64,000 bases of DNA from Segnochrobactrum spirostomi (GTDB taxonomy: Bacteria; Pseudomonadota; Alphaproteobacteria; Rhizobiales; Segnochrobactraceae), in the NCBI RefSeq assembly GCF_009600605.1, contig NZ_VWNA01000001.1:2590501-2654500 (forward strand). The letters are read 5' to 3'. Position numbers and translations under genes: made by a program. A model generated the notes under the pieces. It made no database searches, had not been told where the DNA came from, and worked only from the letters and a program-made list of their open reading frames with translations. This document shows positions 49,751 to 53,471 of this stretch, piece after piece (within the stretch, counting starts at the first letter, position 1; every line of letters begins with the position of its first letter).

Positions 49751-50035
49751 TCAGTGGACGCTCACCGTCACCATGTCGTGCTCGGCCGCATTGGCGACCG
49801 CCGCTTCGCGGCTGTCGGTGAGCAGAATCGGCGTCCCGTCGGCGGCGAGCAGCGCGAACAGGTCGAGGCCCGGCTGCAGCGCGGGCGCCTGCGGGAAGAT
49901 TCGCGCCACGTCTTCCGAGCGCAGCGCCTTGATGTAGGTGATGTGACCGGTGCCGATCGCCGCCAGGTTCTCCGGCGACAGGTCATTCGGCGAGGCATTC
50001 ACCTCGGGCTTCCGGTCGTGGTGCATGTCGTTCAT
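49751..50035 (-). CDS. DUF1150 family protein
   Basis: 94 residues. Small acidic protein (NLAAIGTGHITYIKALRSED, LDLFALLAADGTPILLTDSR, EAAVANAAEHDMVTVSVH) of the DUF1150 family, regularly encoded next to small heat-shock proteins in Rhizobiales. ATG at 50035 with AAAGGAG seven bases upstream. Follows hsp20 by 92 bases on the same strand, so it is probably heat-induced with it. Function unknown; a chaperone-associated or stress role is inferred from linkage. Confidence 0.88.
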   Translation of the reverse strand: MNDMHHDRKPEVNASPNDLSPENLAAIGTGHITYIKALRSEDVARIFPQAPALQPGLDLFALLAADGTPILLTDSREAAVANAAEHDMVTVSVH

Positions 50036-50127: not shown

Positions 50128-50559
50128 TCAGTCGCCGCACGCGATCTGGATTTTCCGCACGATGCGTTCCGGCTCCGGCCGCGCGAGGTCGATCGCCAGC
50201 AGTCCATCCTTCAACTCCGCGCCGAGGATCTCGATCCCTTCGGCGAGAACGAAGGTGCGTTGGAACTGCCGGGCGGCGATGCCGCGATGGAGGAATTGCC
50301 GGGTCTTGTCGTCGTCGATCTGACGGCCGCGGATGACGAGCTGGTTCTCTTCCAGCGTCAGGTCGAGCTGGTCGCGGGTGAAGCCGGCGACCGCCAGCGT
50401 GATCCGCAACACGTCGCCGTGGCCCCCGCGGGGCGGCAGACGCTCGATATTGTAAGGCGGATAACCGTCGCTCGCCGCTTTCGAGACGCGGTCGAGCGCC
50501 CGCTCGATCTCGTCGAAGCCGAGCAGGAACGGACTGGAAAAGGTCGTCATACGCGACAT
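50128..50559 (-). CDS. Small heat-shock protein, Hsp20 family
   Basis: 143 residues. Class A rhizobial/IbpA-like alpha-crystallin: N-terminal PFLLGFDEIERALDRVSKAA, YPPYNIERL, the crystallin core VLRITLAVAGFTRDQLDLTL, EENQLVIRGRQ, LHRGIAARQFQRTFVLAEGI, and GLLAIDLARPEPERIVRKI. ATP-independent holdase that protects unfolding proteins in the cytoplasm. A second ATG at 50550 is possible. Upstream are an RpoH-type promoter and a ROSE-like leader, which fit rhizobial hsp20 genes. Confidence 0.95.
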   Translation of the reverse strand: MSRMTTFSSPFLLGFDEIERALDRVSKAASDGYPPYNIERLPPRGGHGDVLRITLAVAGFTRDQLDLTLEENQLVIRGRQIDDDKTRQFLHRGIAARQFQRTFVLAEGIEILGAELKDGLLAIDLARPEPERIVRKIQIACGD

Positions 50560-50686
50560 CGGACGAGCCCTCGTGAGCAAGCGGCTTTCTTCTCGTTCCG
50601 TGCCCCGCACGGGGCGCAGGCACGGGCCGGACCCGTCTGGCGGCATCCGGAGGGCTTTGCGATTCGGTCGAAGTCGCTGTCCCGTG
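50560..50686 (-). promoter_or_regulatory. ROSE-like RNA thermometer in the hsp20 leader
   Basis: Predicted 5' leader of about 127 bases. The conserved ROSE motif U(U/C)GCU is present as TTGCT (50580-50576), three bases before the GAGGG Shine-Dalgarno (50572-50568), allowing the two to pair in a small hairpin. Upstream hairpins include GCCCC-GTGC-GGGGC flanked by CCGTGCC/GGCACGG. Layout follows ROSE elements of rhizobial small heat-shock genes. The fold was judged by eye. Confidence 0.6.
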
Positions 50687-50692
50687 ACCCGA

Positions 50693-50721
50693 ATATGGTC
50701 TGCCCGCCGCAGCGGTTCAAG
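50693..50721 (-). promoter_or_regulatory. RpoH (sigma-32)-type promoter of hsp20
   Basis: CTTGAA (50721-50716), a 17-base spacer, then CCATAT (50698-50693) on the minus strand, agreeing with the alphaproteobacterial RpoH pattern (CTTG, about 17, CYTAT). It lies between the TIGR02302 stop and hsp20. Confidence 0.65.
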
Positions 50722-50756: not shown

Positions 50757-53471
50757 TCAGTCGCGGGGCAGCAGGCGGTCGAGATAATCGAGCTCGAGCT
50801 GCGAGCGGCCGAGCTCGCCGAGCCGGCGGCGCAGTTCGTCGAGGATGCGGCGTGCCCGCTGGATGTCGATCGCGTCCGGCACCTTCACGCTTGAGCCGAA
50901 ATCGGTGCCACGGCTGCGGCTCGAGCGGCCGAGCGGATCCTCGTCGCCGGACGCCGTGCCGCCTTCCCCGGGCGCACCCTGCTCGTCGCCGTTCTCGCGG
51001 GCCATCTGCTCGGCCAGCGATTGGGCGCCCTTGCGCAGCGCTTCGAGCGCCTCGCCCTGGCGGTCCACCGCGTCGCTCGATTCGCCGCGGCCGAGCGCAT
51101 TGCCGGCTTCGCCCATGGCGCGGCCAGCGTCGCCGAGCGCATCGCCCGGATTGCCGCCCTGGCCCTGAGCACTCTGCCCCGGCTCGCCTTGGCCCTGGCC
51201 GCTCTGGCCTTGTCCCTGCTGCTGGCCTTGCCCCTGCTGACCCTGCCCTTCGGCCTGACCGCCTTGCCCCTCGCCCCTCTGGTCGCCGCGCTGGCCGGGG
51301 CCGAGCCGCTTCATCAGGTCCTGAAGGTCGCGGTTGAGGGCGTCCTGGCGATCCTGGAGCTGTTTCAGGCGCTGCTGGCGGTCGCCGCCGCCGGGCTGGC
51401 CCGTCTCGCCGTCGCCGTTGCCGGGGTTCTGACGGTCGAGATTGTAGGTCTCGTCCATCAGCCGCTGCTGCTCCTGGATCATGCGGCCGAGCTTGTCGAG
51501 CTGCTGGGACTGCTCCGAGCCCTGACCCTGCTGGCCGGGCTGACCCGGACGGGCCATCTGGAGGCCCTCCAGCATCTGCTGGAGTTCGGAGAGGAGCTGC
51601 TCGGCCGCCTCGGGCGAGCCGGTGCGCGCCAGTTCCTCGGCCTTGCGCAGCATTTCGTCGAGGTCCTTGGGCGTGACCGTGCGGGCGTTCTGGTTGCCCT
51701 GCTGGGGCGCCTGCGGGTTGCGCCGCATCTCCTCGGCGAGCTCGCGCAGATAAGTCTGCATCGCCTGGCGGAGTTCGTCGGTGAGCCGGGCGATCTCCTC
51801 GTCCGAGGCACCGTTGCGGATCGCCTGCTTCAGCCGCTCCTGGGCGTCGCGCAGCGCCTGCGCCGCGGCGGCGTGGCTGCCGTCGTCGATCGCGATCGCG
51901 AGGTCCCACAATTCGTCGAGGATCGGCTTCAACTGCGCGTCCGTCGTCGCCGCCGCGAGGTGCTGATAGGCGAGGCGGGTGCCGAGATAGGACGTCGTGG
52001 TCGGGAAGATGCCCTCCGGCGCCAGCATCAGGGCGTCGAGCGAGGTGATCGCGGTGGGCTGCGCGCGGGCGTCGAGGGCGAGGTTGCGGCGCTGCTCGAT
52101 CACCGCGCGGGCGAGCGGCTCGCGGAACGGGTGCTCGGGCAGAGTGATCGTGACCGGCGGTGTCACCGCCTCGTGGCCCGCCTCGTCGCGGGCGACCAGC
52201 ACGACGGCGACGGTCGAGCCGGCATAAGGATGCTTCGTCAAGTCCGCGACCGTCTTCGCCGCGCCGGCCTTGCCGCCGGCGGGGAGGCTGAGGCGGACCT
52301 TCGGCGCGTCGACAAGCGGGCGCCGGGCGGCCGGATCGCCGCCGTTCGGGTCCGGCATCGGGGTGATGCGTGCCTCGGCATCGACGATGCCGTAATCGTC
52401 CTTCACCTCGTAGGCGAACTCGACGCCGCCGGCGCGGGTGCCGAGGGGATCGGCGAGCCACTTGATGGTCGGTGGGTGGTCCGGATCGACGGCGAGCGAC
52501 CAGCGGGCGAGCTCGTCGCCACCGTTCGTCACCTTCACCGTGCCGTCGCCGGTGAGCTTGGCTTTGCGCTCGACCTGATCGGCCGCAGCCGTCGCAGGGG
52601 CGGCCGCCGGGGCGGGGGGCTTGCCGGTTTCCTTGTCCGCATCCTTGCCGGCCTCCGGCTTCGCGGCCGGTGTCGGCTCCAGCGGGCGCTCGCCGTTGGC
52701 GTCGGCGAAGGTCACGGCGGCGTCCGGCGCACCGTGGACGCGCACGACGAGCTCGCTGCCCGCGGGCACCTTGACGATCCGGTCGGTCGCCGCGGCGGCG
52801 TCGCCGGTCAGGAAGATCGGCGCCCGACCCGTATAGCCGGGCGGGGTGATCCAGGCGTCGAGGCGGATCGGTTTCGCCTCGCCGAGCGGTCCGAACGGCC
52901 GGAAGGCGCTCTCGATACGCTCGCCGTAGGATCCGTAGCCGGCGAAGAGTCCGACGAACAGCGCCATGCCGACCAGCGCGCGCAGGGCCCACGGGTCGTG
53001 GCGATAGAGGGCGGGGCGGGGAAAGCCGGGCGCGAGCGCCGCGAGGCGCTCGACCGCGCGGCGGCGGTGGGCCTCCCACAGGGCGGACGCAGCCGGGCTC
53101 AAGGTCGCGGCGGGCTTGTCTTCCAGGGTGGTGAGCGGGCGGTGCGGCAGGCCCGACACCGCCTCGATGCGGTGCACCGCCTCGGCGCGCGACGGCCGGC
53201 GGGTGCGCACGGCGAGACCGAGGCTCGCGACGAGCGCGCCGGCGAACACGACGAGCACGGCGAGCCGCGGCCACGGGCCGATCGCGAGCCACAGGCCGAG
53301 CCAGGACACGGCGACGAAGAGGGCTAGAATGCCGAGGGTGAGGGCGAGCCGCGGCCACAGCCGCTCCCACAGGAGCGAGCGGGCCGCCCGGGCCACGAGC
53401 ACGGCGACGCGCTGCTCGGCCGGGCCGACCGGGCGCTCGTCGTCTGCCATCGGGCTCACGGGTTCGGCCAT
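50757..53471 (-). CDS. TIGR02302/DUF4175 family membrane protein with Gln/Gly-rich region
   Basis: 904 residues. Two N-terminal membrane segments (LALTLGILALFVAVSWLGLW, RLAVLVVFAGALVASLGLAV), another near 175 (ALRALVGMALFVGLFAGYGS), a large periplasmic-type middle with beta-sandwich character (LDAWITPPGYTGRAPIFLTG), then Gln-rich helices (MLEGLQMARPGQPGQQGQGS) and a low-complexity GQGQQ/GQSGQGQG tract (about 720-775), ending in a Leu/Arg helix (LDELRRRLGELGRSQLELDY). Alphaproteobacterial family of unknown function, usually near lysA and argH as here. Confidence 0.9.
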   Translation of the reverse strand: MAEPVSPMADDERPVGPAEQRVAVLVARAARSLLWERLWPRLALTLGILALFVAVSWLGLWLAIGPWPRLAVLVVFAGALVASLGLAVRTRRPSRAEAVHRIEAVSGLPHRPLTTLEDKPAATLSPAASALWEAHRRRAVERLAALAPGFPRPALYRHDPWALRALVGMALFVGLFAGYGSYGERIESAFRPFGPLGEAKPIRLDAWITPPGYTGRAPIFLTGDAAAATDRIVKVPAGSELVVRVHGAPDAAVTFADANGERPLEPTPAAKPEAGKDADKETGKPPAPAAAPATAAADQVERKAKLTGDGTVKVTNGGDELARWSLAVDPDHPPTIKWLADPLGTRAGGVEFAYEVKDDYGIVDAEARITPMPDPNGGDPAARRPLVDAPKVRLSLPAGGKAGAAKTVADLTKHPYAGSTVAVVLVARDEAGHEAVTPPVTITLPEHPFREPLARAVIEQRRNLALDARAQPTAITSLDALMLAPEGIFPTTTSYLGTRLAYQHLAAATTDAQLKPILDELWDLAIAIDDGSHAAAAQALRDAQERLKQAIRNGASDEEIARLTDELRQAMQTYLRELAEEMRRNPQAPQQGNQNARTVTPKDLDEMLRKAEELARTGSPEAAEQLLSELQQMLEGLQMARPGQPGQQGQGSEQSQQLDKLGRMIQEQQRLMDETYNLDRQNPGNGDGETGQPGGGDRQQRLKQLQDRQDALNRDLQDLMKRLGPGQRGDQRGEGQGGQAEGQGQQGQGQQQGQGQSGQGQGEPGQSAQGQGGNPGDALGDAGRAMGEAGNALGRGESSDAVDRQGEALEALRKGAQSLAEQMARENGDEQGAPGEGGTASGDEDPLGRSSRSRGTDFGSSVKVPDAIDIQRARRILDELRRRLGELGRSQLELDYLDRLLPRD

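Follow-up and report, generated by a model that had tools for sequence, protein, structure and literature searches.

Joint control of small heat-shock genes by sigma-32 and a ROSE element is already known (PMC3669281). The classical ROSE element, Rfam family RF00435, stands before a small heat-shock gene and begins with a 5' hairpin, CCGGNN[G]CC..GG/NNCCGG (here and below the bulged base is in square brackets, the loop in parentheses, and the slash marks the point opposite the bulge), followed by a variable middle hairpin and by a last hairpin in which the Shine-Dalgarno (SD) sequence is paired with a bulged-G motif and whose stem includes the AUG. The motif U(U/C)GCU is described as conserved (PMC3669281, PMC11342760), and two to four hairpins within a size of 60 to more than 100 nt are given for these elements (PMC10474464). 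Other layouts have been described: the short ROSE-like thermometer of Pseudomonas ibpA has a two-hairpin leader under sigma-32, with the SD in a second, short hairpin and the AUG unpaired (PMC3669281), and ROSE-G, described upstream of ABC transporter genes, has the pentamer CUGCU and two opposing bulged Gs (PMC12857270). In one published ROSE-like element, heat induction fell when the bulged G was deleted; it was abolished by UU4748CC and also when the deletion was combined with U43C, which alone did little (PMC11342760). In ROSE-G, induction was lost once the double bulge had been closed (PMC12857270). Finally, a small heat-shock protein can also act on its own messenger: the IbpA of E. coli represses its own mRNA through R93, a residue common in the IbpAs of alpha- and gamma-proteobacteria (PMC10474464).

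The gene pair studied here is the one described in Caulobacter crescentus as shsp2-larA, where the DUF1150 protein is LarA, an activator of the Lon protease, and where larA is in a predicted operon with shsp2 that is directly regulated by sigma-32; the word "thermometer" is absent from the main text of that paper (PMC10665427). We found no thermometer report for hsp20-larA in the open-access literature. Two earlier sources may nevertheless cover orthologues of the present hsp20: a compilation from 2005 with over 40 predicted ROSE elements (as cited by PMC3669281 and PMC4166951), and an account according to which every class A small heat-shock gene of M. loti carries such an element (PMC3989490).

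In the window (the whole stretch of 64,000 nucleotides of DNA that was analysed), hsp20 occupies positions 50128-50559 of the minus strand, starts with an ATG at 50559 and encodes a small heat-shock protein of 143 amino acids (Pfam PF00011, E 8.6e-16). It is preceded by a DUF4175 gene (50757-53471, minus) and followed by the operon's second gene, the DUF1150 gene larA (49751-50035, minus; 94 amino acids; PF06620, E 1.2e-29), which has its own SD, AAGGAG, and starts 92 bases past the hsp20 stop. For comparison within the order, the best 30 loci of one search were joined with the best 80 of 544 from a second one; from these 110 we left out L023, at a contig end, and L041, a duplicate of L011. 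The remaining 108 leaders, 29 from the first best-hit list and 79 from the second, comprise the window's own (L006) and 107 relatives; near copies occur among them, and 86 leaders are left after dereplication. A DUF1150 gene was found at 105 of the 108 loci, and in 102 its start lies 300-800 bases downstream of that of hsp20; therefore the leader studied here is that of the hsp20-larA heat-shock operon.

A promoter CTTGAA-N17-CCATAT about 130 bases before hsp20 had been proposed in a first-pass annotation of this DNA, and its letters are confirmed: they are rare in the genome and conserved in the orthologous leaders. The -35 hexamer CTTGAA (50716-50721, minus) and the -10 hexamer CCATAT (50693-50698, minus) are both perfect matches to the RpoH (sigma-32) type, separated by a 17-base spacer, and 133 bases separate the -10 hexamer from the hsp20 ATG. 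No other copy in the window is free of mismatches; allowing spacers of 16-18 bases, the 5.4 Mb genome holds two perfect copies and none of a reversed control pattern. The best promoter site has all 12 letters in 74 of the 108 leaders and at least 10 of 12 in 106 (own included), a level reached by 0.4 composition shuffles per 108; after dereplication, 85 of 86 leaders have at least 10 letters, and the single very low score belongs to L104, whose leader contains N letters. The hexamers agree with the consensus published for RpoH1 of S. meliloti and RpoH of R. etli, for which spacers of 15-16 and 16 are given, depending on the point from which the -10 is counted (PMC4843759, PMC4167512). The promoter is real, beyond chance, and we infer that hsp20 depends on RpoH in this strain, as published for sigma-32 in the Caulobacter operon (PMC10665427).

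At the other end of the leader, the hairpin AGCC[G]CTTG(CTCA)CGAG/GGCT (50566-50586, minus), which is conserved and covaries in relatives, is the proposed thermometer hairpin. The SD sequence GAGGG (50568-50572, minus) lies entirely within it, and CCGCT (50580-50584, minus), with G50582 bulged, is the counterpart of the ROSE motif U(U/C)GCU. The bulge is flanked by the pairs C50584-G50568 and C50583-G50569 on one side and C50581-G50570 and U50580-A50571 on the other; the stem stops 6 bases short of the ATG, leaving the start codon outside. The nearest sister genome (L007) keeps the CCGCT register in AGCC[G]CTTG(GATGAA)CGAG/GGCT, and a typical hairpin of the relatives, CAAAGUC[G]CUU(CGA)GAG/GACUUUG, is formed by the last bases before hsp20. 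As judged from these comparisons of sequence, a ROSE-type hairpin over the SD is well supported, and its true partner is CCGCT and not TTGCT, the motif favoured by the first-pass annotation.

We scored an SD hairpin as present when it has a bulged G, overlaps the SD and has at least four outer pairs. By this rule it is found in 96 of the 108 leaders of the capped best-hit sets (dinucleotide shuffles: 6.3 on average, 10 at most), and in 74 of 86 after dereplication; 12 of the 108 are without a hairpin under the rule. Among hairpins scoring at least 19, the bulge holds G in 87 leaders and C in 4, and never A or T. The starts of larA, intended as a control, showed a bulged-G hairpin in 14 of 105 cases, 11 at score 19, and were rejected as a clean negative control since some of them resemble ROSE-type hairpins over the larA SD. 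Three alignments were used. In A1 (43 of the 86 leaders, all passing the bulged-G rule), the bulged G, the C after the bulge and the GG of the SD are invariant, the G partly so by selection. For alignments A2 (30 leaders out of 34 candidates of the first class) and A3 (17 out of 20 of the second), we picked leaders in which both hairpins pass the rule. Such a selection inflates both the paired percentage and the constancy of the bulged G. Over the 17 pairs of A2, 97.8% of the two-hairpin cells are paired (24-62% with slid-partner controls), and 10 pairs show changes on both sides for a shuffled mean of 3.6. In A3, 94.1% are paired and 2 pairs are doubly changed, 217 of 500 shuffles being as high; the covariation support is weaker for this second class.

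The hairpin was also searched for outside the order. Among 115 genomes of the class, 61 have a matching Hsp20 at E ≤1e-30 and, minus two of this order, 59 genes remain, whose orthology is by best score, with a DUF1150 neighbour in 21 of the 28 where the flank was at hand. Under a looser rule of three outer pairs, a bulged-G SD hairpin is present in 51 of these 59 best-hit genes, and one with a YYGCU core in 46 (shuffles: mean 1.15, maximum 4). The signature of the proposed RNA layer is thus found across alphaproteobacterial orders, and the hairpin layout looks old in Alphaproteobacteria.

The letters around the bulge vary. Over the 96 hairpins they are UCGCU in 62, GUGCC in 19, GCGCC in 11 and CCGCU in 4, the window being among these 4. 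The partner of UCGCU in the SD is AGGAC (51), AGGGC (10) or GGGGC (1), CCGCU goes with AGGGC and the G(U/C)GCC forms with GGGC; CCGCU with AGGAC, which would set C opposite A, is absent from the 96 hairpins. The combinations CCGCU/AGGG and G(U/C)GCC/GGGC match neither the published ROSE motif nor ROSE-G. On a tree of Hsp20 that is otherwise poorly resolved, a single change is enough to explain the G(U/C)GCC class (branch support 90, not starred), and an independent-pairs test for independent compensating changes, with 1-3 pairs, had no power. The element of the window and its orthologues most probably share an ancestor of the UCGCU type, from which the copy of the window drifted to CCGCU/AGGG through compensating changes. 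The variation indicates that the ROSE pentamer U(U/C)GCU can vary while the pairing and the bulged G stay, and the natural series UCGCU, CCGCU, GUGCC and GCGCC offers a ready test of pair strength against opening temperature.

Upstream of the SD hairpin, the leader of the window has two more bulged-G hairpins, which makes three in succession, as in L007. Hairpin I, CCGGAU[G]CC(GCCAGAC)GG/GUCCGG (50627-50650, minus), aligns with hairpin I of the Rfam ROSE family and of our own model R1 (see below) and has the same bulged G as the RF00435 consensus, a feature that ties the leader to classical ROSE despite its low score; it is paired in 100% of the cells of the 30 picked A2 leaders. Hairpin II, CCGUGCCU[G]CGC(CCCGU)GCG/GGGCACGG (50598-50625, minus), with a U[G]C/GG core, is predicted by folding and has a comparable one in L007; in many relatives the leader is too short for it. 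Of the 108 leaders, 99 have a bulged-G hairpin of score at least 18 in the region from the -10 hexamer to the SD hairpin (15-29 in shuffles, 12-25 with other bulged bases), with YGCY opposite GGG in 81 of them, and in the window the scan of this region scores hairpin II best. Hairpin I and the SD hairpin share the core Y[G]C opposite GG, and in the one clade with G(U/C)GCC/GGGC the SD hairpin carries the letters of hairpin I. Finally, AGCCCUC (50650-50656, minus) may compete with the local hairpin by pairing over a long range with GAGGGCU at the SD: this pairing is the minimum-energy fold in one calculation and the centroid in the other, in which the local hairpin has the minimum energy. In L007, the final 125 bases of the leader did not show this pairing.

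How the copy of the window compares with the described elements can now be detailed. Like classical ROSE, it has in silico the SD in a 3'-proximal hairpin (in one fold, a long-range closure), a bulged G opposite the GG of the SD, and two to four hairpins within 60 to more than 100 nt, the 5' one with a bulged G. Unlike it, its pentamer is CCGCU, no U(U/C)GCU is paired with the SD (TTGCT is out of register), the AUG is not in the last stem, and the score is far under the gathering cut-off of RF00435. The copy is therefore not a ROSE element in the strict sense. The layout of Pseudomonas ibpA is common to many relatives of this leader, whereas the window has a third hairpin and the CCGCU core. 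With ROSE-G it shares a pentamer that begins with C and a bulged G opposite the SD, but this pentamer is CCGCU and the bulged G is single.

The covariance search that the first-pass annotation had advised did not recover the element: RF00435 on 261 bases alone gives 14.3 bits (E 8.3) for a gathering score of 45, and the alignment, 50590-50650, misses the SD. That 14.3-bit hit is the only one at this locus. No match at E ≤10 was found in 20 loci (the window's own locus L003, 16 relatives with this hsp20 and 3 paralogues of the same genome), nor in this genome among the 150 of 415 candidates scored. With strict filters and 56 candidates per genome, 61 genomes (own included) gave a match in 4, each beside an hsp20 paralogue, and none at the hsp20-larA locus itself. 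RF00435 thus misses the leaders tested here, a gap that a covariance model trained on them would help to close. When all Rfam families, RF00435 among them, were run on the whole window, only a tRNA and a serC leader RNA (RF00517; 4576-4627, minus; 68.9 bits, gathering 35) reached gathering scores. As for the other hsp20 genes of the genome, the paralogues L001, L004 and L005 have no blast match to this hsp20. A second hsp20, L002 (contig C1 near 3275 kb, outside the window), covers its SD with a classical hairpin of the TTGCT kind, GTT[G]CTCC(CTA)GGAG/GAC, and its leader gave no RF00435 match at E ≤10, nor at ≤5 in a smaller scan.

Our model R1 was built on the 30 first-class leaders, the family of the window being excluded. 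On the copy of the window it gives 15.5 bits (E 0.02) for hairpins I-II and 9.8 bits (E 0.61) for the SD hairpin; among the sisters, L007 reaches 9.5 bits and in L008 the SD hairpin is found with 22.3 bits (E 5e-4). In a search of the own genome, with 150 of 3020 candidates scored, the leader of the window is not listed at E ≤10, and R1, with these low scores, fails as a detector of the copy. The two best matches of that search, L196 and L197, have no convincing gene start behind them and were taken for chance. Over the order, R1 matches at E ≤0.1 in 87 of 199 genomes (strict filters, 28 candidates scored per genome listed). We read 20 of the match places, mostly weaker ones: 6 precede this hsp20 (L190, L193, L200-L203), 2 an hsp20 paralogue (L187, L199) and 2 a DUF1150 gene (L186, L188), the remaining 10 being unclear or chance-like. 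At L186 and L188 (genomes G030 and G137, of the same genus), hairpin I and a GGTCGCTT..AAGGAC hairpin stand directly before the DUF1150 gene. This type of hsp20 was not found in G030, only a paralogue at 47% identity, and the leader may be the survivor of a lost gene.

The response to temperature was calculated with ViennaRNA. Every fold of the window closes the SD and none predicts its opening; an SD free at low temperature, named in the first-pass annotation as evidence that would speak against its proposal, does not appear in silico. Between 25 and 50 °C the accessibility of the SD core in the window is 0.00-0.01 and that of GAGGG 0.03-0.04. The median for the SD core over 96 leaders rises from 0.06 at 25 °C to 0.23 at 50 °C, and four classical ROSE elements of RF00435 go from 0.03-0.19 to 0.16-0.33. 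The folding suggests that the copy of the window may be stiff or constitutively closed. The probability of its local SD hairpin at 25 °C is only 0.18, because AGCCCUC (50656-50650) can pair with GAGGGCU; this probability exceeds 0.5 in 67 of the 96 leaders and fails to in 29, including the sister L008 (0.0). Because the classical ROSE controls also barely open in the same calculation, the prediction is a poor guide to opening, and we did not retain temperature folding as proof of thermometer action.

Together, the conservation of the promoter and of the hairpin, the covariation, the preference for a bulged G and the in silico sequestration of the SD have been demonstrated above, and we consider it probable that an RpoH promoter is combined here with a ROSE-type hairpin which closes the SD until heat opens its bulged stem. 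RpoH would start transcription about 125-130 bases upstream of hsp20, as judged from the promoter position. At low temperature the last hairpin, 50586-50566, would pair AGGG of the SD with CCGCU, leaving G50582 bulged, and ribosomes could not start; upon heating, the SD hairpin would open first, since the bulged G weakens it, and the 5' hairpin or hairpins would remain folded. Heat would then raise the mRNA level and release its translation. The dual transcriptional and translational control proposed in the first-pass annotation is, in this respect, well supported by the comparison, with the difference that the register is that of CCGCT with the bulged G50582. The opening by heat is presumed for this strain and could fail, since the copy of the window is stiffer than its relatives. 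If the mechanism operates, an operon that also encodes the activator of the Lon protease would have a second layer of control at the RNA level.

Three other explanations have to be weighed against this one. The register given by the first-pass annotation, a classical ROSE in which TTGCT itself (50576-50580, minus) pairs with GAGGG, is very improbable. Its letters are present, TTGCT standing 3 bases before GAGGG in the window, and the paralogue L002 forms just such a hairpin, but the signature arrangement that was read into them does not hold: TTGCTCACGAGGG, folded alone with this pairing, has -0.6 kcal/mol at 25 °C and 0.0 at 37 °C, the bulged-G hairpin of AGCCGCTTGCTCACGAGGGCT having -10.4 and -8.1 kcal/mol, and L007 has TTGGA at that place. 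Three of the letters of TTGCT belong to the stem of the conserved hairpin and two to its loop, the relatives have TCGCT/CCGCT or G(T/C)GCC opposite the SD, and the counterpart in the window begins four letters upstream of TTGCT, which stability and conservation led us to reject as the working motif. That the fold around the SD is a GC-rich one arisen by chance, with no control at the RNA level, is hardly credible either. Positions 50530-50687 fold with a stability like that of shuffled copies (z -0.36), RF00435 stays below its threshold and R1 is weak on this copy, all of which such an explanation would accommodate; it is opposed by the conservation of the hairpin, the preference for the bulged G, the covariation and the depth of the layout across the class.

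The explanation closest to the proposed thermometer is that of a conserved attenuator which would be insensitive to temperature in this strain, keeping the translation of hsp20 low throughout and leaving heat control to RpoH alone. The extra G-C pairs of the copy, its nearly invariable SD accessibility and the competing long-range pairing agree with it, as does the behaviour of the ROSE-like element cited above, in which the stabilising UU4748CC, or U43C with deletion of the bulged G, abolished induction (PMC11342760). As the predicted opening is small for the classical ROSE controls also, and the destabilising bulged G has been kept in the window, we regard such an attenuator as unlikely, though of some weight, and prefer the hairpin that opens with heat.

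A further idea concerns the Hsp20 protein. All 108 Hsp20 proteins have the arginine of the RGIA-x-R motif. In the window it is R97 (RGIAAR); by this motif, we take R97 to be the counterpart of the RNA-binding R93 of E. coli IbpA. The bulged-G hairpins could then be a repeated module that Hsp20 recognises and binds, and not solely elements that melt; the protein would hold down the hsp20-larA mRNA that encodes it until it is titrated away by unfolded proteins. We hold this to be rather doubtful, a little more so than the attenuator; if true, the Hsp20-binding module would couple the chaperone and the activation of Lon both to heat and to damaged proteins.

Two lineage-specific arrangements were noted in the course of the comparison. 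In Methylobacterium and Methylorubrum (L050, L064, L073, L074, L102), the hsp20 leader is rearranged: L050, L064 and L073 have a G(U/C)GCC hairpin with a long loop that ends 17-19 bases before the ATG, and L074 and L102 have no hairpin by the rule. The other arrangement is at larA. In the window, the hairpin of larA does not cover the likely larA SD. YYGCY cores occur at 20 of the 105 order-level larA starts (shuffles that keep the SD: 5.9, maximum 11), some of these 20 hairpins leaving the likely SD uncovered, and at 1 of 14 class-level larA starts. In some lineages (L056, L062, L048, L051, L058, L108 and others) larA has bulged-G hairpins over its own SD, as exemplified by TCTC[G]CTCG(TAT)TGAG/GAGA and CACC[G]CTTC(ATGA)GGAG/GGTG.
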